Of a stretch of 23,014 bases of DNA, positions 5,101 to 22,981 are shown one piece after another. Positions within the stretch are counted from its first letter, which is position 1, and each line of letters begins with the position of its first letter. Position numbers and translations under genes: made by a program. Source of the stretch: a virus. Below the pieces are notes generated by a model that saw only the letters and a program-made list of their open reading frames with translations, searched no databases and had not been told where the DNA came from. The stretch lies in IMG/VR virus record IMGVR_UViG_3300037117_000062, positions 1 to 23,014 of that record; one strand, written 5' to 3'.

Positions 5101-6666
5101 TTATGCCTGTCCGATGCGAGCGGCACCGGGGAAACGCTTGTTGAAGCTGTCGACGGAGGCCGCATCCATCGCGATGTGCTCAGCCGCCGGCTTCTTCTCG
5201 TTGGGCTTGGGTTGAGCTTCAAGGACGTGCTTGAGCGCGGCAGGATGGATCTGATCGACATCCTTCTTGCCGAGCGCACCAAGCGCAGTGCGGTAGACGC
5301 CTTCGGCGCTGTCGTGCGCCATGGCGATATTGCCCACCCACGGCCGCACGAAGTTCTCGGCCTCGCGGATGTCCTTCTGGGTCTTGGTGGCGGTATCGGC
5401 AGCGACCTTGATCGCCGACTTGATCGCCGCGTCCATTGCCTTCTTCGGCACCATTTCTTCCTTCTCCTCGTCTTTGGCCGGCTCCTTGACGGGAGTAGAC
5501 TCGTCTGCGTCCTTGGCTCCGGACATGAGTGCGTCGAGCGCCTTCATATCGTCTTCGGAGATCTTGTCCTTAAGGAAGTTTTTGACGCCCTCGGCGTCCA
5601 TTGCCGTGTCGTCCTCGTCCTCAGCGGGCTTCTTGACTTCGTCTTTTTCTTCGTCCTTGGCCGGCTCGTCCTTTTTCTCCGGCTCTTCGTCGCCGGCAGG
5701 CTCTTCCCTGTCAAGCGAATCGAGGAAGCCGTGGACGTCCTCAAGCTTGGCGTCCTTGGCCAGCTTGCCGTCGAGCAGCTTGGCGATGCCGGCGAAGATT
5801 GCCGGCTTGCTCTCGACGTAGTTCTTGGCCGTGACGCCCTTGAGTACTGACGCGAGGTCAATCTTGGCGTCTTGTGCCATCTTCGGCTTCAGGAAGACCA
5901 TCAGGGCTCCCTGGGCCAGTGCAGCCTTGCGGCTCAGTTTCACACCCATCTGGATGATCTCCTCTGTTATGGGTAATGCCGAATCTCCGACAATGACATC
6001 ACTGCCGGCTCTCCCTTCCCTTACCAAAGCGACGTGATTGCCGATGATGTCGCGCATCACGCCGTCGTATTCTGCTCCGTTGTAGTTGCCGGGCGTCATA
6101 TCGGCCCGGTAGCGGTAGGCGGACGAAAGTTCTTTCTGAGTGCCAGACTCCACCGCGTCAATGAAATCCTTCGCCCATAGCACCAGGCTGTTGCGCAGAT
6201 AAGGCTCCGCAAACTCAGCATCGGTACCGGTGGAGCCGATCACTAAATCAGGCTGGTGATCTTGCGCGTTGACCGGGACGTGCTCGCTAAGTAGCGGTAA
6301 ATTATTGAATGAAGGCGCGGCCTTGCGCAGTTCAGCCGGGTCGCGCAGCAGCTGATAGACCTTGTCGCGCTTGAGGCCCATCTCTTCCCAGTCAGGGATC
6401 TCAGAGCCGAGATAGGGACACACATTCGATTTTGAAATATTTGTTATCTCAACATGCAGCCGACCGTCGTCGTCAGTACGGCGCACGCTGGCGCGGTCGA
6501 AGGCGAAGGAATCTTGGGCTTGCTTGTCTTCTTCGTCCTCATCCTTCCCAACAAATTCCTCACCCACCGATTTAGGGATACCAATCGTGCTCTTGCCCTC
6601 ACGCGCGGCGAACATCGCCCTGCGCTGTGCTTCACTTACCGGAGGATCAGTAGCTATCTGTGGCAT
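5101..6666 (-). CDS. DUF2213-type prohead protease with acidic/lysine-rich scaffold-like tail
   Basis: The ATG at 6666 is chosen because AAGGAGGG lies at 6673-6680, six bases upstream, and because it overlaps the ParA-like stop as TAATG. The product is 521 residues. Residues about 55-240 match DUF2213 phage proteins: FNNLPLLSEHVPV (His129), KELSSAYRYRADMTPG (Ser181/Ser182), and IIGNHVALVREGRAGSD (His211). These are placed like the histidine and serine of S78/U35 prohead proteases. Residues about 310-420 are very rich in Glu, Asp, Lys and Pro. A helical C-terminal part (about 420-521) follows and ends RFPGAARIGQA. It directly precedes the cement and capsid genes. A fused protease plus internal scaffold is the likely role; cleavage activity is inferred. 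Confidence 0.8.
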   Translation of the reverse strand: MPQIATDPPVSEAQRRAMFAAREGKSTIGIPKSVGEEFVGKDEDEEDKQAQDSFAFDRASVRRTDDDGRLHVEITNISKSNVCPYLGSEIPDWEEMGLKRDKVYQLLRDPAELRKAAPSFNNLPLLSEHVPVNAQDHQPDLVIGSTGTDAEFAEPYLRNSLVLWAKDFIDAVESGTQKELSSAYRYRADMTPGNYNGAEYDGVMRDIIGNHVALVREGRAGSDVIVGDSALPITEEIIQMGVKLSRKAALAQGALMVFLKPKMAQDAKIDLASVLKGVTAKNYVESKPAIFAGIAKLLDGKLAKDAKLEDVHGFLDSLDREEPAGDEEPEKKDEPAKDEEKDEVKKPAEDEDDTAMDAEGVKNFLKDKISEDDMKALDALMSGAKDADESTPVKEPAKDEEKEEMVPKKAMDAAIKSAIKVAADTATKTQKDIREAENFVRPWVGNIAMAHDSAEGVYRTALGALGKKDVDQIHPAALKHVLEAQPKPNEKKPAAEHIAMDAASVDSFNKRFPGAARIGQA

Positions 6667-7391
6667 TACGATCCCTCCTTCGGAGCGCACGCGCTCTTCG
6701 CCAAACCGCCCAACCCCACCTTATCGAAGTCTGCCCAAGTCGAAGTTAGCCAAGTTCGCACGTAGCCGCGCAGCATGCGCGACTGACCGGCGTCGCGGCA
6801 GAAGTCGGTAAAGCCGACGCCGAGCTTGTCGACAGTCTCACACGCCCGCTCGGCCAAGTGCGGCACTACCACGGTCTGCGGCTCCATTTGGGCTAACACC
6901 GCGGCGAACTTGCTGTCAGCGCCGTCCCATTCGAAGTAACCGCCGGCGACATCGCTGATGTGGTTCTTTACCAGAATGTGCCGCGAGCCACCACCGATCC
7001 TGGCGGCAGCCGCCGAAACCTCGCCTAGCGATTGAACGCTTGGTCCCAGCACATGCATCAGAACCAGACCGACGGCGCCGGTTTGAACATCGTCCAACAA
7101 ATGCGCCTGCTCTAGTGTGGCAAGGCTCTTGGACAGCATGCCGGCCCGCACGTCGATGACGGTGACGCCGGAGGCGACGTCGAACATCTCCATCTGATCC
7201 TCGACGCGCGCCATATCGACGACCTTGGCTGACGGCACGAAGCGTGCCAGGCCGCCAGCCGGGTTCTCCGAGTCGAATGCCCTACCTGACACGCCAGTCG
7301 AGGCCAGATAGTCGATCAGCGACCGGGTAACGGTGGTCTTGCCGACGCCGCCCTTATCGGAGCCGACCATGATAATCAGAGGCACTGTCAT
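6666..7391 (-). CDS. ParA/MinD-like P-loop ATPase
   Basis: The product begins MTVPLIIMVGSDKGGVGKTT, a deviant Walker A motif with the signature lysine (Lys13) and catalytic lysine (Lys18) of the ParA/MinD/ArsA family. A FDSENPAG segment stands where family members have their second acidic motif, and VTVIDVRAG is the Walker B-like strand. A LMHVLGPSVQSL segment follows. The 241-residue length suits a single-domain ATPase without an N-terminal DNA-binding domain. The start at 7391 puts the P-loop ten residues in, as usual. An in-frame ATG at 7454, four bases beyond the upstream stop, would add 21 residues and cannot be excluded. No ParB-like gene is visible. The stop overlaps the protease start as TAATG. 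Confidence 0.85.
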   Translation of the reverse strand: MTVPLIIMVGSDKGGVGKTTVTRSLIDYLASTGVSGRAFDSENPAGGLARFVPSAKVVDMARVEDQMEMFDVASGVTVIDVRAGMLSKSLATLEQAHLLDDVQTGAVGLVLMHVLGPSVQSLGEVSAAAARIGGGSRHILVKNHISDVAGGYFEWDGADSKFAAVLAQMEPQTVVVPHLAERACETVDKLGVGFTDFCRDAGQSRMLRGYVRTWLTSTWADFDKVGLGGLAKSACAPKEGS

Positions 7392-7457
7392 TAGTTTTTC
7401 TCTCGGCCCGGCACGGTCATAGCGCCGCGGGTGCAGCGGAAAGCTGTAGCTCATGCA

Positions 7458-11187: not shown

Positions 11188-12423
11188 TTAAGCTATTCTA
11201 ACAAAAAGACCTATATAATATTGGGGAACTTGGTTTCCAGTAATATTTCTCCAAGTGCCACTTTGTGGGGTGCCAGCGCCATTTACAGTGGTGGTAGCCA
11301 AATTAAAGTTGCACAAATTTAATGCTGATCCAGCTACCGTTGCCTCATCAGAAACGAAGCTAACACCACTTAACAGCACCGGACCGGACCATCCAACTGG
11401 CATAGTACCGTTCGTCGGTATCGGCGCGTAAGCAGCCAAGGCTGCCGCAGCAGCTCTTGACGTGTCGGTAGGATGGATGTGATCGATGCGGGCGCCGTGG
11501 GTTGAGGTCCCAGCCGATGCTGTACCATCAACTACCGGCGTCTCAGTAGCGGCAAGCTGGGCGAGGACGAACTGCGCGGTAGCAATCGCCGTCGAGTTAG
11601 TGTCACGCGCCACCGTTGTGGTAGTCGGCGTGCCGCTGAACGCCGGCCCCGCCAACAGCGCATAAGCTGACAAGTCGGGGGTCGGGGCATCATCCCAAGT
11701 ACCGCGCGCCGTTAAATACTTCGGGTCGGTGCCGTCACCTGCGGCCGGTGCCGGTACCAAACCCCTGACGCCGACTGCGGTCCCGGATGCCCCCACCATG
11801 TCCGGCACCGCGGACGTGATGGTACTGATAGGTATGGCCGTGGGCGACGCCGCCCCAGTGCCGTTGTTGCCGACCAACGTGCTGCCGGCTTGAACCGCCA
11901 GGTTGCTTAGCGCGATGCCAGTGACGGTCGTATAGGTTGGCGAAACACGGTGCCAAGTATTGTCGGAGCCACCGCTGTAGACAATCCAATCGCCGACGCT
12001 CCAGGTGGAGACGCCAGAAACTGTAGCAGTGCCGGCGACGTTGCAGATGTAGAAATTGCCGCTGATACCGCTGCCAGAGGCAAGATGTGGCGAGTTAGTA
12101 CTACCATTCCAAACACCGAGATAACTCAAACCGCCAAGCACCGACGATGGCAGCTCAGCGGTTGGAATACGCCCGGTGGCGTCAAGCGTCGCCACGCCAT
12201 TGGAGGTGCCCAGCAGCCGATCGAAGTAGGCAGTGGTCGCCAACAACGCCGAGTTACTATTTTGCGCCGGCGTCGGTGCCGTCGGCAGTCCGGTAAAATT
12301 AGGAGAGTTTAGTGGGGCTGCGCCAGCTAGAGAAGCTGCCGCGGCTGCCGCCTCGTTGGCCGCGATGACGCATTGGGCCAGCAACGACTCACACTGCCGA
12401 ATAATCTGGGACGTGGTCGTCAT
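11188..12423 (-). CDS. Tail fibre-like protein with two phage fibre repeats
   Basis: This 411-residue protein starts at an ATG overlapping the upstream stop (ATGA). After an alanine-rich N-terminal helix, a fibre repeat is visible at about residues 38-71 (LNSPNFTGLPTAP, then ALLATTAYFDRLL). A second related one is at about 256-291 (LAGPAFSGTPTTTT, then TAIATAQFVLAQLA). Between them are YLGVWNGSTNSP and WSVGDWIVYSGGSDNTWHRV, typical of phage fibre shafts, and YLTARGTWDD. HGARIDHIHPTD at about 309-320 is another recurrent fibre motif. The C-terminus ends with a compact YYIGLFVRIA. There is no signal peptide, unlike the 605-residue protein nearby. Likely role: host receptor binding. Confidence 0.75.
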   Translation of the reverse strand: MTTTSQIIRQCESLLAQCVIAANEAAAAAASLAGAAPLNSPNFTGLPTAPTPAQNSNSALLATTAYFDRLLGTSNGVATLDATGRIPTAELPSSVLGGLSYLGVWNGSTNSPHLASGSGISGNFYICNVAGTATVSGVSTWSVGDWIVYSGGSDNTWHRVSPTYTTVTGIALSNLAVQAGSTLVGNNGTGAASPTAIPISTITSAVPDMVGASGTAVGVRGLVPAPAAGDGTDPKYLTARGTWDDAPTPDLSAYALLAGPAFSGTPTTTTVARDTNSTAIATAQFVLAQLAATETPVVDGTASAGTSTHGARIDHIHPTDTSRAAAAALAAYAPIPTNGTMPVGWSGPVLLSGVSFVSDEATVAGSALNLCNFNLATTTVNGAGTPQSGTWRNITGNQVPQYYIGLFVRIA

Positions 12424-12932
12424 TCTTTTACCTTGACGCTGCCAGGGTAGACCTCATCACGCGGGGTAACATGGATGCGTCGTAGCATGATCAGCAACTT
12501 GTCCTTGCCAACTGATATCTGATGGCCCAAGTCATAATCGCGCATGGCATAGATCTTTGGGTCTTTCTTCCGCAGCCGCTTCTTGAACGGTATCGGCGCG
12601 CCGATGGTAAGAGCGCGAAGCCTAACCGAGCTGAACGAACAGTTGGTAGCACCAGCAACCTTGGACAGCCCTATTTCGCCGCGAGCACACTTGCGGATAA
12701 GTTCGTCGTCCTGCTCGGTGAAATATAGCCGACGACGACGCTGCGGAAACACCAACCCTATGCGCTTGGCATGGTAGGCGATGGTGGTCTTGGCCGCTTC
12801 AAGTCGGTAACAAGTCTCAGTGACCGTAAGGCCGTCGACTGCACACTGTATCAACTCGGGGTCGGTGAACTTACGCAGCTTTGAGTGTGATAGCACTTGT
12901 GCCAAGTGACGGCGTTCAGAGAAGATGGTCAC
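12420..12932 (-). CDS. Tandem helix-turn-helix protein in the structural operon
   Basis: A GTG start overlaps the MuF-like stop as GTGA, and the stop overlaps the fibre start as ATGA. The 170-residue basic protein shows two consecutive HTH-like segments. The first (about residues 20-60) contains FTDPELIQCAVDGLTVTETC followed by an AYHAKRIGL recognition-helix-like stretch. The second (about 68-110) contains YFTEQDDELIRKCARGEIGL and a following SFSSVRLRALTIGAP. The pattern of an acidic first helix, a short turn and a basic helix ending in IG resembles GcrA- or Myb-type HTH domains. A DNA-binding regulator or recombination-associated factor is likely; its target is unknown. Confidence 0.6.
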   Translation of the reverse strand: MTIFSERRHLAQVLSHSKLRKFTDPELIQCAVDGLTVTETCYRLEAAKTTIAYHAKRIGLVFPQRRRRLYFTEQDDELIRKCARGEIGLSKVAGATNCSFSSVRLRALTIGAPIPFKKRLRKKDPKIYAMRDYDLGHQISVGKDKLLIMLRRIHVTPRDEVYPGSVKVKE

Positions 12933-18044: not shown

Positions 18045-18518
18045 CTAAGCCGCGACGAGGTCGCCTATCTCAAACTTAATCGAGCGCTTGGCGCCAAGAA
18101 TGCTGAACAACGCAGCCTCCCGCTCGCCGGGCAGCTCGCCGATGTAACTTCCAATTTTATCTGATAACGGCCCGGTGGCCGGGCGTACTTGCTGGCCGGG
18201 TTGAAACCTCGGCGCCTTGAGCTGGATGAGAACCCCGTCCTTGTCGCAGCGGGCCTTCAACCTAATGATCTCGCCTTCGTGCGCCGGCCCTATCACGTCG
18301 GCCACCCCCCGCATGTCGAAGATAACTTCCCAACCGGGGGATAACTTGATGGGCAAATAATTGAACAGCAATGGATCGAGCCGGTGGACGCGCTTGCCGC
18401 GATGCCTGACCGTGCGTCTAACGCGCGGGAAGAAGTATTCGAACTGGGCTTTAAGAAGTTGTTCAATGACGTCTTCCTGTTGATGCCAGAACGTAACCGC
18501 GCAGGCCCAGCCGTGCAA
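18045..18518 (-). CDS. Phage NusG-like transcription elongation/antitermination factor
   Basis: The TTG at 18518 is chosen as start because GAAGGGG lies at 18526-18532 with a seven-base spacer and because the NusG fold begins right after it; the upstream in-frame extension to 18578 looks unrelated. The 157-residue product has an NGN-type domain: HGWACAVTFWHQQEDVIEQL, EYFFPRVRR, then LLFNYLPIKLSPGWEVIFDM and GVADVIGP. The C-terminal KOW-type domain is FQPGQQVRPATGPLSDKIGS, ending with a LGAKRSIKFEIGDLVAA-like strand pair. NusG binds RNA polymerase and, in specialised paralogues such as RfaH or LoaP, overrides termination on particular operons. It is the first gene after the 430-base regulatory region and heads the long structural block, so it may act on that transcript. 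That is inference. Confidence 0.8.
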   Translation of the reverse strand: MHGWACAVTFWHQQEDVIEQLLKAQFEYFFPRVRRTVRHRGKRVHRLDPLLFNYLPIKLSPGWEVIFDMRGVADVIGPAHEGEIIRLKARCDKDGVLIQLKAPRFQPGQQVRPATGPLSDKIGSYIGELPGEREAALFSILGAKRSIKFEIGDLVAA

Positions 18519-18525
18519 TTGAAAG

Positions 18526-18532
18526 CCCCTTC
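18526..18532 (-). promoter_or_regulatory. Ribosome binding site deciding the TTG start of the NusG-like gene
   Basis: GAAGGGG on the minus strand ends seven bases before the TTG at 18518. No comparable site precedes other possible starts of this frame. Confidence 0.55.
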
Positions 18533-18548
18533 GGGTTGCTGGGGTCGG

Positions 18549-18578
18549 TTTATAATAGCACCGGCCGCAACAAAGCAA
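18549..18578 (-). promoter_or_regulatory. Possible sigma70-like promoter for the NusG-like/late block
   Basis: On the minus strand TTGCTT (18573-18578) and TATAAA (18549-18554) are separated by 18 bases, about 30 bases before the TTG start. Each hexamer has mismatches to consensus. Position supports it; sequence alone does not prove it. Confidence 0.3.
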
Positions 18579-18679
18579 GGGGGGAATTGCGAAGACCTAC
18601 CCCTAGGTATGGGGGGTCGGCCAAAAACGTTTTAGGCATTTTAGGCATACCCCCCTTAAATATCCCCCCAAAAAGACCA

Positions 18680-18694
18680 GACAATGTTATTGTC
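18680..18694. promoter_or_regulatory. Perfect inverted repeat, operator candidate
   Basis: GACAAT and ATTGTC are perfect six-base arms around GTT. The site lies beside the A/T-rich stretch and one CCTAAAA variant. It is too short and lacks a U-run for a terminator; a dimeric regulator site is more likely. Confidence 0.35.
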
Positions 18695-18705
18695 CCTAAA
18701 ATACC

Positions 18706-18735
18706 TATAATGTATATATATATTATAATATATAA
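18706..18735. other. A/T-only stretch, possible unwinding element or promoter
   Basis: These thirty bases contain a single G and no C and are mostly TA steps, in an otherwise G+C-rich genome. Together with the flanking repeated motifs this is the arrangement of an iteron origin with a DNA unwinding element. It could also hold minus-strand promoters: TTGTAT and TATATA occur with a 17-base spacer. No open reading frame here has normal protein composition. Confidence 0.5.
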
Positions 18736-18790
18736 GGAAATACAAGCAGTTAAGCCCATTTTTATTGGCAAAACGTTTTAGGAGTCGCTA

Positions 18791-18814
18791 TGCCTAAAAC
18801 GATCGATTTAGGCA
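18791..18814. promoter_or_regulatory. 24-bp near-perfect palindrome containing the repeated motif
   Basis: Arms TGCCTAAA and TTTAGGCA are exact inverted copies around ACGATCGA; only one symmetric pair in the 24 bases is mismatched. The left arm continues as the CCTAAAACG motif. This is how a high-affinity operator for a dimeric protein looks. Confidence 0.5.
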
Positions 18815-18950
18815 ATGGGTTTTTGGATTTGCAGTACCTAAAACGTGGGAGGGGGAGCCGTTTACCTTGTACGTCTCCCTAAAACGTCGGGCGGGGAAAA
18901 GCTATATATAGGGGGTAGTGGCAGGCTAAGGATTCGGGGATAAGGGGGCT

Positions 18951-21104
18951 TTAGCGATACCAAAACGTTGGCGGCCCCCCGCCTTCCGGTGTTTGGCGCT
19001 CGGCCTTTATGCTGCCGGCCACAATCAATTGCTCCAACGCTTCTTTTAAATCGCGCGACTTATATTTGTATTTAAGCGCCTGTATCAGGTCGCTATGCCT
19101 AACCCGTTTAGAGCCATTGCTGAGCCGGCCGATGGTCCGCTTAATATCGTTGGCCATGGCTTGGTGCTCGCTATCGGCAATATAAAGCCCGGCGGAGACC
19201 ACCAGCTTGTTGGCTGACCAGCGGGCAAATTCGCAGGCCCAGGTCATAACATCTATTTCAATGCAATCTGTGCCAAGCCCAACGGTAACAATAGTGGCCA
19301 ACCGCATGGCAATCTCGGCGGTGCGGGCCATGAGGGAGCCAACATCCTCGTCCTGATCGTTTAGGTTTTGCAGCTCCTCGGCAAACCGGTTCCAATGGGT
19401 ATCGGCTACGTCGGAAATAGCCAGGCTAACGTAGGAGGGCGAGGATGCCGATAGTTTGTTCATGGCCCCGCCCAAGCGGCCGTATATGGCCCGCAACCCA
19501 TGCACAATGCCCTCCGGGGGCCGGGCCGGGTCCTGTTGGGGGGTTTGTTTGGCAGGGCGACCGGGGCTTTCAATAATAAGGAAGCGGTTGAGGATGCCGT
19601 TAACAATATCGGCACCCTCCAGGCTGGTGTAGAACTCGCCAGCGGTCGATGTGCCAAAGATGGACATGGCTGGGCTTTCAATCTTGCGCGCCGGGAGCTG
19701 CGCCCACTCAGGCGTAGTCATAGTAGTAAAGCTGTTGCCCCACGCCATACGCAGAACCGAGGACACCGCGCCCTCAAAGCCAGAGGCCCGCTTGTTGTTG
19801 ACCCGCTTTAGGAAGGCACCGAACTCGTCCATGGCACAGACCGACAAGGGTTCCCTGACCAAGAAGTTGATAACCGCCGGCATGCTAATAAATTGGCTAG
19901 GGCCAACGTGGGAACCCATGCCGGAGGCTTGGAGAATAGTGCCTATTTGGGAGAGCGGGTGGTTTTTGCCCGCCCCGGTACGGGCTATGCCAATAACGTA
20001 CAGGTGGGTGCCTGAGCGTGTAGGGCCGGCTATGTGGCGCCCGGCAGCGGTGCCTACGATGGTCAAGGCAGCACCCAAGGAAAGAGCAGGCTGCGGATAC
20101 ATGGCGGTGTCACATATCCATTTGGCAATGGCACCGACCAGGCCGGGGACCTGGAAAGAAGGTGTAGGTGCTTCCTTGGGGTTGGAGGTTGGGGCCGGGG
20201 GAGCCGCCGCAAGCTGCGGCAGGTCGATAACAACACCGCTGGGCAGAGAGTCGGAGGGACCTTTTGGGTGTCCTATACCGTCTTGTAGGGCGCGCGCTAT
20301 AGTGCCCTTGGGGCCTAGCGCCTTGTCGTAGGGCTTAATGCCCCAGGAAGAGGCCGCCTGCCAAAGTCTGGTGCGGGTAGTTGTAAGGTCAAGGCATTCC
20401 CCGCCAACCAGTTGGCCGGCGCGGAACGCCAAGGCGTTGGCTTGGTTGTTGCGCTCGCCTTGTGGGGTGTTCTTAAGTTCCTCGAGGATTTCATTGAACG
20501 CGGCCTCGCCATAAGCCTTAAGCCGATCGTCGGGAAGAAGGGCTATGGGTTGGGGAGCGGACTGTTGATGGGGCGATAATAGTTCAAGCAACCATGGCGG
20601 TGGGTCTTGGGCGTTGGTAAGCAGACCATGCAGAACGTAAGCCTGCATGGTGTCGGTAAAGATAGAACCCGGCCCTATAACAAAGCCGCCCATGCCGCGC
20701 ACGTCAATACCACACTCGTGCTTGGGCGGCAGCCTACCGCGGGCATTGTTGTGCTCCGTTGGGTTGCGGTAGAACAAATGCCGGCCGCCGGACGGTGTAT
20801 CGCTATAAGGAACGTTGAGTGGGTCATTGAATTGTTCAGCATAATGGGTGAGCCAGGCTAGACCGTCCGCTGGCTTCTTGTCGCAGTCGATAACCAGCAG
20901 ATTACACTTGGCCAAGTCAATACCGGGCACCGCATCAGGGTGCTTCTGCCATAACCTGCTTATCTTGTCGGGATCGGTGGTTGAGACCGAACGCCAATAG
21001 ACGCCCTTGTGCGGGGATTTCTTTGAGCCGCCTTCTTCCTGGCAAGGAAAAACATAGTAGCCCTGGGCTGCTAGCTGTAGAGCCGTCTGACGGTTAATGG
21101 ACAC
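18951..21104 (-). CDS. Primase-polymerase / P-loop ATPase (replicative primase-helicase)
   Basis: This 717-residue protein starts with GTG; GAGGAAGG lies about ten bases upstream. Residues 1-180 form a bifunctional primase-polymerase (Prim-Pol) domain: VIDCDKK with Asp73 and Asp75, TPSGGRHLFYR (103-113) and GIDVRGMGGFVIGPGS (Asp134). These are the metal and nucleotide sites. Residues about 200-280 resemble the helical region after Prim-Pol domains (GERNNQANALAFRAGQLVGG). A P-loop ATPase follows: VPGLVGAIAKWICDTAMYPQ, Walker A GIARTGAGKN (372-381), Walker B SVCAMDEFGAF (Asp426, Glu427), and NGILNRFLII. It probably primes and unwinds DNA at the phage origin. It lies between two repeat-bearing non-coding regions. 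No DNA polymerase gene is visible. Confidence 0.88.
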   Translation of the reverse strand: MSINRQTALQLAAQGYYVFPCQEEGGSKKSPHKGVYWRSVSTTDPDKISRLWQKHPDAVPGIDLAKCNLLVIDCDKKPADGLAWLTHYAEQFNDPLNVPYSDTPSGGRHLFYRNPTEHNNARGRLPPKHECGIDVRGMGGFVIGPGSIFTDTMQAYVLHGLLTNAQDPPPWLLELLSPHQQSAPQPIALLPDDRLKAYGEAAFNEILEELKNTPQGERNNQANALAFRAGQLVGGECLDLTTTRTRLWQAASSWGIKPYDKALGPKGTIARALQDGIGHPKGPSDSLPSGVVIDLPQLAAAPPAPTSNPKEAPTPSFQVPGLVGAIAKWICDTAMYPQPALSLGAALTIVGTAAGRHIAGPTRSGTHLYVIGIARTGAGKNHPLSQIGTILQASGMGSHVGPSQFISMPAVINFLVREPLSVCAMDEFGAFLKRVNNKRASGFEGAVSSVLRMAWGNSFTTMTTPEWAQLPARKIESPAMSIFGTSTAGEFYTSLEGADIVNGILNRFLIIESPGRPAKQTPQQDPARPPEGIVHGLRAIYGRLGGAMNKLSASSPSYVSLAISDVADTHWNRFAEELQNLNDQDEDVGSLMARTAEIAMRLATIVTVGLGTDCIEIDVMTWACEFARWSANKLVVSAGLYIADSEHQAMANDIKRTIGRLSNGSKRVRHSDLIQALKYKYKSRDLKEALEQLIVAGSIKAERQTPEGGGPPTFWYR

Positions 21105-21260
21105 GGGAGCGGGGCCTTCCTCACAAGGCTATGAAACGGTGCGCCGGGTAATCCTCGCAGTGTGAGGCTGCAAAGAAACCGAGCTTGGGGGGAACGGCTG
21201 TCCCCGGCGCGCGTTCGGGTAACTTATAGGCTTTACTTAGACGTCCTATCCCGGTTCCCC

Positions 21261-21299
21261 AAACATGGTTAATAAACTAGGTTAACAAACGTGGTTAAC
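21261..21299. repeat. Three tandem 13-bp repeats (iteron-like)
   Basis: Three consecutive 13-base units follow the pattern AAACNNGGTTAAY: AAACATGGTTAAT, AAACTAGGTTAAC and AAACGTGGTTAAC, with no bases between them. Two of the three include GTTAAC. They lie in the non-coding spacer between the helicase gene and the primase gene, about 160 bases before the primase start. Unit length near one and a quarter helical turns and the A/T-rich content suit iterons or operator repeats. The rest of the 272-base spacer (21105-21376) holds no credible gene. Confidence 0.7.
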
Positions 21300-21340
21300 T
21301 TTTAGGGGGTAGTTTGGTTTAAACAAGCCCCCTAGGACTA

Positions 21341-21376
21341 GGGTGGGTTGGGGCAAGTAAGGGCTAGGGTTGGGGG
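21341..21376 (+). other. Potential G-quadruplex tract
   Basis: The plus strand has six runs of three to five G separated by one to seven bases (GGGTGGGTTGGGG, a seven-base loop, then GGGCTAGGGTTGGGGG), directly beside the helicase stop codon. The pattern fits G4-forming rules. The coding strand is C-rich here, so the transcript would not form it; the DNA could. Just beside it, CCCTAG and CTAGGG (21330-21343) form a short palindrome. Confidence 0.5.
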
Positions 21377-22981
21377 TCATTCGGCCGCTTCCTCTGTTAT
21401 TTGTTCAAACCTTACGCCTACCACTCGAAAATATTTGCCATCGGGCTGCACGCAGATTTCTGTGGGTATCTTCAGCTCTTTAATGCGCGAAAGGGCTTCT
21501 GAAACTGTTGCGGGGATCGGCCGCTGTCCAGTCTTAAGCCACCATTGCTCGGCGCGTGATCTCATTTGCCCTTGGTGCTGGAAGCCCAGCCATTCCTTGT
21601 GGGTGACAAAGCCGCAGGAGTATTCAACGCGAAGGGAATTGGGGGAGCCGGGCTTGGTGTGGACGTAATACTTGACCGCGTCGACGTCGACCCATTGGGC
21701 TTTGCCTTTGGAGAGGATATTTGTGTTGGCATCGGCTACGGCTTCGTGCTTGGGCATTAGATCGCGCGGGAACAGATGTCCGCAGATAGGGCATTGCTGG
21801 GCAGCCAGCGCCAGGATGGTTTGGCACACAGGACAGGCCTTGGAGAGCGCTTCACCGTCGCCTTTGTTCTCGCCGGCCGACTTGGCCGTGATGGTATCGA
21901 TAGGACCATGGCGTTCGGTATTGCGAGCGAAGTCGAGAACAAGGCAGTTATCCTTGCCGGGAGCGCGACGAAGCCCACGGCCTACTTGCTGGACGAACAG
22001 GCCGGCACTGGCCGTTGGCCTCAAGAGGGCAATAAGATCGGTGCCGGGGTGGTTAAAGCCGGTGCCCAGCACACCTACGCTAGTGAGGCACCTGATATCC
22101 CCCTGCGAGAACTGTCTGATAAAACTATCACGCTCGGCCTTGGGGGTTTCACCGGTAACCGTCTCGCAGCTAACGCCTTCGGCGCGGATAGCATCGCGCA
22201 TGTGGCCGGCATGTTCGACACCAGAACAGAATGCTAACCAGCTTTTTCTCCCGGCGCCTAGCTGGGCAATCTCCTTGGCCGCCGACTTGGTGATCCAGTC
22301 CTTATCAACCGCCACCTCGAGCTGGCCGGGGATAAATTCACCACCGCGTTTTTGTACGCCGGAAATGTCAAACTGGGTAAGAGTAGCTTTGCTAAGTAGG
22401 GGAGACAAATAGCCCTGTTCAATAAGGTCGGTCACCTTGGCTTCATAGACCACCTTGTCAAATAAGCGGCCTTTGCCGTAGTCGAGGCGGCCTGAGTCAA
22501 GGCGAAATGCTGTCGCCGTTGTACCTACCATTCGCATATCTGGGGTCTGGGCACGCAAAGCATTAATAAAGGCCCCGTACATGGTGGCCTGGTTGCGGCT
22601 GATGAGGTGGGCCTCGTCGATAAGAAGGATATCAAACCCACCTAACAGAGGAACCTTGTTGTAGACCGACTGGATGCCGACCAACATGATTTGATGATGG
22701 CGATCGCGACGCCCGATGCCAGCGCTGTAGATACCGGCCGGGGCCTCCGGCCAAAGGGCAATGAGTTCTTTGTAGTTCTGGCTAATAAGTTCACGGACAT
22801 GCGTGGCAATGGCAATGCGTAAGCTGGGGTAGCGGGCAAGAATCTCCTTGCAGATAGAAGCAAGGATCAATGACTTGCCAGAGCCGGTCGGCAACACAAT
22901 GAGGCCATTGACACCGCCCTTGAGCCAATAGGTGTAAAGGGCATCAAGCGCTTGGCGTTGATAGGGGCGGGGATAGAGCAT
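21377..22981 (-). CDS. SF2 DEAD/DEAH-box helicase with zinc ribbon
   Basis: This 534-residue protein begins MLYPRPYQRQALDAL, the Q-motif-like start of restriction/UvrB-type SF2 helicases. Walker A is PTGSGKS (31-37), motif II is DEAH (122-125), motif III is TATAFR (155-160), and motif VI is QQVGRGLRRAPGK (331-343). After the helicase core a zinc ribbon is formed by CPVC (383-386) and CPIC (397-400). The C-terminal region contains VKYYVHTKPGSPNSLRVEY and a following RSRAEQWW segment, as in phage helicases of this kind. It probably unwinds or remodels forks or recombination intermediates. No strong ribosome site is visible before the ATG. Its stop lies against the G-tract. Confidence 0.9.
   Translation of the reverse strand: MLYPRPYQRQALDALYTYWLKGGVNGLIVLPTGSGKSLILASICKEILARYPSLRIAIATHVRELISQNYKELIALWPEAPAGIYSAGIGRRDRHHQIMLVGIQSVYNKVPLLGGFDILLIDEAHLISRNQATMYGAFINALRAQTPDMRMVGTTATAFRLDSGRLDYGKGRLFDKVVYEAKVTDLIEQGYLSPLLSKATLTQFDISGVQKRGGEFIPGQLEVAVDKDWITKSAAKEIAQLGAGRKSWLAFCSGVEHAGHMRDAIRAEGVSCETVTGETPKAERDSFIRQFSQGDIRCLTSVGVLGTGFNHPGTDLIALLRPTASAGLFVQQVGRGLRRAPGKDNCLVLDFARNTERHGPIDTITAKSAGENKGDGEALSKACPVCQTILALAAQQCPICGHLFPRDLMPKHEAVADANTNILSKGKAQWVDVDAVKYYVHTKPGSPNSLRVEYSCGFVTHKEWLGFQHQGQMRSRAEQWWLKTGQRPIPATVSEALSRIKELKIPTEICVQPDGKYFRVVGVRFEQITEEAAE

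Follow-up and report, generated by a model that had tools for sequence, protein, structure and literature searches.

A candidate iteron-type replication origin 3' of a PrimPol-DUF3987 gene in a viral contig and its relatives

The DNA analysed here (the window, 23,014 bp) corresponds to nt 137-23150 of the IMG/VR contig IMGVR_UViG_3300050011_000061 (G001, 71,920 bp). On its minus strand the genes for a DEAD/DEAH-type helicase (21377-22981), a Prim-Pol/DUF3987 protein (18951-21104), a NusG-like protein (18045-18578), a large terminase and a portal protein follow one another in this order. A preliminary description had placed the largest non-coding space between the second and third of these genes and had read it as a replication origin or a master switch. 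This space of 372 bp (18579-18950) was indeed the widest intergenic gap seen in the list of open reading frames of the window, the next one noted being at 21105-21376. It contains an array of short repeats and an A/T stretch, which together are called the module in the following and are considered as a candidate replication origin.

Five exact copies of the 9-bp repeat CCTAAAACG were present within 259 bp (18628-18886), and these were also the only exact copies in the whole window. They are arranged in both orientations around the A/T stretch, two on the minus strand (the one at 18628-18636 forming part of a doublet) and three on the plus strand (Table 1). The preliminary description of these copies, of their variants and of a 30-base stretch with one G and no C was therefore correct. 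The latter stretch is the sole 30-mer of the 450-bp region analysed that lacks C and has at most one G, and the 50-mer richest in A/T in the whole contig overlaps with it. Sites with no more than one mismatch to CCTAAAACG numbered 10 in the window, 8 of them at 18621-18886; shuffling of the whole window gave a mean of 4.2 and a maximum of 9 sites. The complete contig contained 6 exact copies, compared to 0.47 expected from its base composition. The sixth copy, at contig position 36901, lies within a small reading frame as judged by eye from the sequence. The claim that the motif is enriched at this site consequently holds for exact copies, of which there is one other in 71.9 kb. The Poisson probability of at least five exact copies per 450 bp was about 4e-15, a value that ignores the choice of the motif for its being repeated. 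When the whole contig was scanned without a given motif (450-bp windows, 25-bp steps), 9-mers occurring more than three times were detected only in windows around contig positions 18476-18901.

Table 1. Features of the module and of the adjoining genes (positions in the window)
Feature	Position	Strand	Basis or remark
Whole module (proposed origin), 3' end of initiator gene to NusG-like gene	18615-18970		
Repeat CCTAAAACG, cluster on the side of the initiator gene	18878-18886	+	
Repeat CCTAAAACG, cluster on the side of the initiator gene	18837-18845	+	
Variant CCTAAATCG	18804-18812	-	
Repeat CCTAAAACG	18793-18801	+	
Repeat CCTAAAACG	18774-18782	-	
A/T stretch (one G, no C), proposed melting site	18706-18735		
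Direct doublet of degenerate 9-bp units CCTAAAATA-CCTATAATG, each differing from the consensus at two positions; overlaps the border of the A/T stretch	18695-18712	+	
G-run/TATA-like element between the doublets	18646-18669	-	By eye
9-bp direct doublet CCTAAAATG-CCTAAAACG, orientation opposite to the doublet at 18695-18712	18628-18645	-	
Variant CCAAAAACG, near-palindrome together with 18628-18636	18621-18629	+	
Proposed initiator gene: Prim-Pol, DUF3987 (MCM-like AAA+ fold), C-terminal winged helix (residues about 644-717)	18951-21104	-	Pfam, PHROG, AlphaFold2, fold searches
NusG-like gene, next after the module	18045-18578	-	Start codon uncertain, TTG at 18578 or 18518

Sites with up to one mismatch to the DnaA box TTATNCACA or to the binding site of integration host factor were absent from the 450-bp region, and searches of the window with Rfam (gathering thresholds) and for tRNA genes gave no match. 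The idea of a master switch found no support of its own, as one sigma-70-like promoter site was detected compared to 1.1 in shuffled sequences; a terminator scan was also at chance level. The single strand of the module folded better than 100 of 100 shuffled sequences (z -2.4) and formed a branched structure; inverted repeats alone would give such a value.

Searches with the Prim-Pol/DUF3987 protein yielded 17 loci in viral contigs, 32 loci via alignment (overlapping the first 17) and 8 loci in contigs of bacterial genomes, which from their titles we take to belong to Hyphomicrobiales. Among the 17 records searched, CCTAAAACG occurred beside the gene in its own contig only, and G013 contained one copy elsewhere. 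In many relatives a different short repeat (CCTAGACCG in G017, TGACAACCG in G003, and TGACAAACG, GCACTAACC, GCCAACACC and others) was arranged around a TATATA-rich stretch just 3' of the PrimPol-DUF3987 gene. The repeats, whose conservation in relatives the preliminary description would have counted as support, were hence not conserved in their letters, while the layout and the A/T stretch were conserved in part of the relatives. Loss of the repeats from relatives, which it had named as speaking against its reading, applies to CCTAAAACG literally, yet in many relatives another repeat has taken its place.

Automatic motif fitting was dropped, as about half of 20 regions were fitted with TATATA or A-rich words, and 9-mer seeds set by hand were used instead. 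All exact copies of the seed lay in the module in G003 and G027 (7/7 each), G023 (6/6), G007, G018 and G020 (5/5 each), G017, G008 and G005 (4/4 each), G006 and G019 (3/3 each), G002, G012 and G024 (2/2 each) and G021 and G026 (1/1 each); in G001 the number was 5/6, and G004 and G022 had no exact copy of their seeds. Such confinement means less for short records, in which the region makes up 3-8% of the record. The doublet CCTAAAAYGCCTAAAACG was also tried as a marker in viral contigs and rejected. It matched five stretches, one being the own contig; the matches in L082, L084 and L086 were judged to lie inside coding frames, and that in L083 adjoins another kind of primase. Tandem repeats were seen at L083:5600-5930, just 3' of this different gene (L083:5929-8355), which we take to be primase-like.

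To describe the position of such modules regardless of their letters, 26 records (806,726 bp) were scanned in windows of 400 bp. A window was scored when an 8-mer with 3-6 G/C occurred in it four times or more, both strands being counted, and when it also included a 30-mer in which A/T made up 80% or more. Such clusters were found in ten of the 26 records, one in each; all ten were located on the 3' side of the gene at a distance of up to 3 kb, and there were no others. As this zone comprises 8.3% of the sequence, the probability of the result would be about 1.6e-11 if the clusters were placed at random. Six clusters touched the 3' end of the gene, and the remaining ones were 134 bp (G007), 420 bp (G012), 1.6 kb (G020) and 2.9 kb (G004) away from it. 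The thresholds were passed by 50 of 13,281 windows of the real records and by none of 13,281 windows after local shuffling.

The same thresholds were applied to a held-out set of 36 loci. A later scan had yielded 78 loci, 46 of them on unused contigs, and 36 of these 46 were kept after primases at least 85% alike had been dropped. A cluster was detected in 11 of the 36 loci, always 3' and never 5' of the gene (129 kb of 3' flank and 140 kb of 5' flank scanned); among the 27 loci whose 3' flank measured 1.5 kb or more, 10 had one. These modules are not all independent, since L137 had repeats in common with L078, and L153 and L172 with L081, both from the earlier modules, and L140 and L170 with each other. 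Among the loci from bacterial genomes, six of eight passed both thresholds, all of them 3'; L081 had the repeats without the A/T content, and L076 had neither.

The arrangement of the sites recurred as well. In 20 of 25 modules, which were chosen and seeded by hand, one or more sites of one orientation were found 20-41 bp from the start of the A/T stretch and one or more sites of the opposite orientation at 72-141 bp. G004, G021, G022, G019 and L041 did not show both orientations in that layout, and G001 had two extra sites in the first orientation. Same-orientation pairs 7-10 bp apart were most often spaced by 9 bp (29 pairs), followed by seven (13), eight (5) and ten bp (5). The order was the same in 8 of the 11 held-out modules, with distances of 31-47 and 103-144 bp, the exceptions being L162, L178 and L142. 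By eye, the A/T stretch of L058, L049, L075, L078, G012 and G020 was seen to be directly preceded by a word such as CTAAATC or CTAAGTC, in many cases with TGAT after it.

The AlphaFold2 model of residues 315-717 of the Prim-Pol/DUF3987 protein was confident, with a predicted local distance difference test score (pLDDT) of 91.3 and a predicted template modelling score (pTM) of 0.88. In comparison with MCM helicases, this model gave a Z score of 19.5 and 3.4 Å over 259 residues, and Foldseek an E value of 2e-9; the DUF3987 region (residues about 320-640) is thus predicted to fold like MCM helicases. A sequence search of the PDB with a profile of the helicase and winged helix gave weak matches to MCM3 (best E value 0.063). 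In the model the last 74 residues follow the order helix-helix-helix-strand-strand, which we read as a winged helix. In the fold search, the full model matched the pRN1 primase-polymerase with its N-terminus. A related protein of Pseudomonas phage DDSR119 is annotated as DNA primase/polymerase and Mcm7. In the accessible part of an earlier report, DUF3987 was predicted to be a helicase, and origin recognition was suggested as the role of a terminal winged helix in a related primase (PMC5862659).

Distances between repeats correlated with distances between the winged helices (n = 24, r = 0.57, p = 2e-4), and with those between the helicase cores at r = 0.43. In partial Mantel tests the winged helix retained r = 0.42 (p = 4e-4) with the core fixed, while the core gave r = -0.07 with the winged helix fixed. 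After near relatives had been removed and the orientation left free, the partial r was 0.34 (n = 14, p = 0.006). The repeats thus differ among relatives and diverge together with the winged helix, and each repeat may be specific for its initiator.

Short repeats of this kind could also represent an operator or promoter region, where a regulator of the phage would bind and switch the NusG-like and later genes, and the divergence of the repeats would then reflect repressor specificities. Temperate phages diversify their operators, and in 15 of 36 records or loci the initiator gene has a NusG-like gene on its 3' side. The G-run followed by a TATA-like word between the two doublets, which was noticed by eye in several relatives' modules too, could be a promoter. 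We nevertheless consider this explanation improbable, as the module follows the primase gene whatever gene comes next, the divergence of the repeats follows the primase's own winged helix, and the promoter-like sites were at chance level. Moreover, the neighbours in the window are the primase and the NusG-like protein and include no repressor. Regulators usually act at several promoters, while the exact repeats were nearly confined to the module in the records, CCTAAAACG having its one other copy in the contig.

The NusG-like gene may, however, be connected with the module in another way. Its product matched NusG in Pfam (E value 1.1e-4) and an antiterminator in PHROG (E value 2.3e-4), and in the 15 cases mentioned such a gene was found on the same strand, no more than 6 kb from the initiator gene on its 3' side. 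The module could serve as an origin and at the same time contain the promoter of the NusG-like operon, which would overlap the right-hand doublet; the initiator would then also time the late genes. The order of initiator gene, module and NusG-like gene in the window and in other records agrees with such a double role, and some plasmid initiators are known to act as regulators as well. As the promoter scan was at chance and 21 of 36 records or loci had no NusG-like gene in these 6 kb at the threshold used (some records ending early), we regard the double role as rather unlikely.

The repeats, the A/T stretch, the place 3' of the same gene across relatives, the geometry kept with changing letters and the predicted fold together make it quite probable that the region is an iteron-type phage replication origin worked by the adjoining PrimPol-DUF3987 protein. 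Of the two roles first suggested, that of an origin agrees with the recurrence of the anatomy 3' of the same gene in many phages and prophages, mostly with another repeat, and that of a switch found no support of its own. In the mechanism proposed, the C-terminal winged helix would bind the 9-bp repeats, as the co-divergence suggests. The opposed sites, one set beside the A/T stretch and the other about 50-100 bp on, would seat two facing MCM-like rings, judging from the geometry and the fold. The A/T stretch would melt, and the fused primase-polymerase, going by its domain, would prime the strands.

The CCTAAAACG array, found beside the gene in this phage only, is one version of an anatomy that is more widely distributed. 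The modules might represent a widespread class of phage origins, so far seen mainly in alphaproteobacterial phages and prophages, in which a recurring geometry places an MCM-like primase-helicase while the letters of the repeats and the winged helix diverge together like lock and key; the evidence leaves us evenly divided on this point. Each lineage would change its lock and key, perhaps to keep co-infecting relatives from firing each other's origins. If this is true, the geometry alone would allow origins and the code by which they are read to be predicted from sequence.

Several results weigh against the interpretation as an origin. At the thresholds used, 16 of the 26 records and 25 of the 36 held-out loci had no module, 9 of the 36 having less than 1.5 kb of 3' flank. 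Only 2 of 11 named phages passed, Rhizobium phage RHph_TM3_3_14B and Sphingomonas phage Lucius. In Sinorhizobium phage AP-16-3 (initiator gene at L200:2995-5349, module at L200:5350-5610) the module is that of RHph_TM3_3_14B, with three exact copies (DNA 87% identical over 72% of the stretch); Sphingomonas phage Birtae has an apparent module by eye, NV1.1.1 was ambiguous, and the six others gave no module at these thresholds. With one mismatch allowed the repeats were less exclusive than the exact copies: 8 of 20 sites in G001 were in the region and 12 elsewhere, and in G017 8 of 25 were in the module. The 9-mer seeds and motif alignments behind the seed counts, the geometry and the co-divergence were set by hand after the data had been seen. 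In sliding blocks the winged helix gave the highest correlation (0.575), but core residues 445-518 were nearly equal (0.52). The Mantel permutations keep shared ancestry in, and the protein side consisted of initiator segments alone.

The cumulative GC skew, of which a minimum at the module had been named as possible support, also belongs here. Such a minimum was found 410 bp from the module in the own genome and was missing in most relatives tested: of eight long records only the own contig had its raw minimum less than 1 kb from the module, and detrending added one further record, G027 (854 bp). GC skew supports an origin here and does not do so in most relatives, and as these lack a minimum at the module, little weight was placed on it.

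Other parts of the window contain two further genes of possible interest. A gene for a ParA/CobQ-like ATPase (6666-7454) lies inside the structural block and gave weak ParA-type matches (Pfam E values 3.7e-5 and 1.7e-4, below or near the cut-off; PHROG E value 6.6e-6), so that the repeats might be imagined as a centromere-like partition site for this protein. It is the primase gene that the module accompanies, at a distance of about 11 kb from the gene for the ParA-like protein, and we consider a partition site very improbable. A small protein encoded beside a Mu F-like gene (12420-12932) weakly matched a D5-like transcriptional regulator in PHROG (E value 1.4e-4). The ends of contigs G001 and G017, both listed as linear in IMG/VR, carry direct terminal repeats of 127 bp and 107 bp, respectively, which are probably assembly overlaps of circular maps.

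To our knowledge, the origin is not known for many tailed phages. An origin of the present type was not found described for phages in searches of the open-access literature, outside of which most subscription papers lie. The rule proposed here would point to a likely origin next to a gene that can be recognised, and the motif need not be known. The 24 pairs of protein and repeat provide material from which the site choice of a winged helix could be learned, and a direct test is possible in cultured phages such as RHph_TM3_3_14B, AP-16-3 and Lucius. An initiator gene with iterons downstream is a known kind of arrangement; as far as these searches show, a geometry that recurs in tailed phages while its repeats are exchanged would be a new variation on it.

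Several known systems resemble the module in part. Origins of the Rep/iteron plasmids have a DnaA box beside the iterons, which are direct repeats of about 17-22 bp. The module differs from them in lacking a DnaA box and in having 9-bp repeats in both orientations. The alpha protein of satellite phage P4 is a primase-helicase that binds short repeats in both orientations (ori/crr); it belongs to another family of initiators, and the likeness is that of a phage-type primase-helicase with short repeats both ways. In the origins of simian virus 40 (SV40) T antigen and papillomavirus E1, opposed short sites beside an A/T tract serve two hexamers. These would work like the module in their opposed sites and A/T tract, but the initiators are unrelated. 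In the accessible part of a study on staphylococcal pathogenicity islands (SaPI), the SaPI-type initiators were compared with the self-loading initiators of SV40 and E1, which read their sites by an N-terminal domain (PMC7581432).

The ORF904 protein of plasmid pRN1 joins a Prim-Pol domain to a helicase and a winged helix, and a putative origin lies just 3' of its gene; this origin needs a 100-bp stem-loop, and in the accessible text the authors do not describe iterons (PMC4234260). The domains and the candidate origin 3' of the gene are shared with the system described here. The mark of the latter is the repeats around the A/T stretch, and its single strand is predicted to fold into a branched structure, compared to one extended stem-loop of about 100 bp in the pRN1 type. 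A role of this structure like that in pRN1 is possible.

The closest likeness is seen with the SaPI type. An A/T-rich stretch flanked by repeats is a feature of its origins and is also present in this module. SaPI Rep and the Cch/Cch2 proteins were absent among the fold and sequence matches listed for the initiator, to which no weight is given either way. According to the accessible part of the published work, SaPI Rep and Cch2 of the staphylococcal cassette chromosome mec (SCCmec) use their C-terminal domain to read repeats that lie immediately 3' of the helicase gene, possibly in the form of two hexamers, and binding of the repeats has been shown for Cch2 (PMC7581432). Here, too, a cluster of repeats is located 3' of a helicase-primase gene, whose product has by its predicted fold an AAA+ core and a C-terminal DNA-binding domain, the predicted winged helix. 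In contrast to the staphylococcal elements, the carriers are alphaproteobacterial tailed phages and prophages, the DUF3987 helicase is fused to a Prim-Pol domain, the binding of the repeats is proposed, and the order of A/T stretch, doublet, spacer and opposite doublet recurs.

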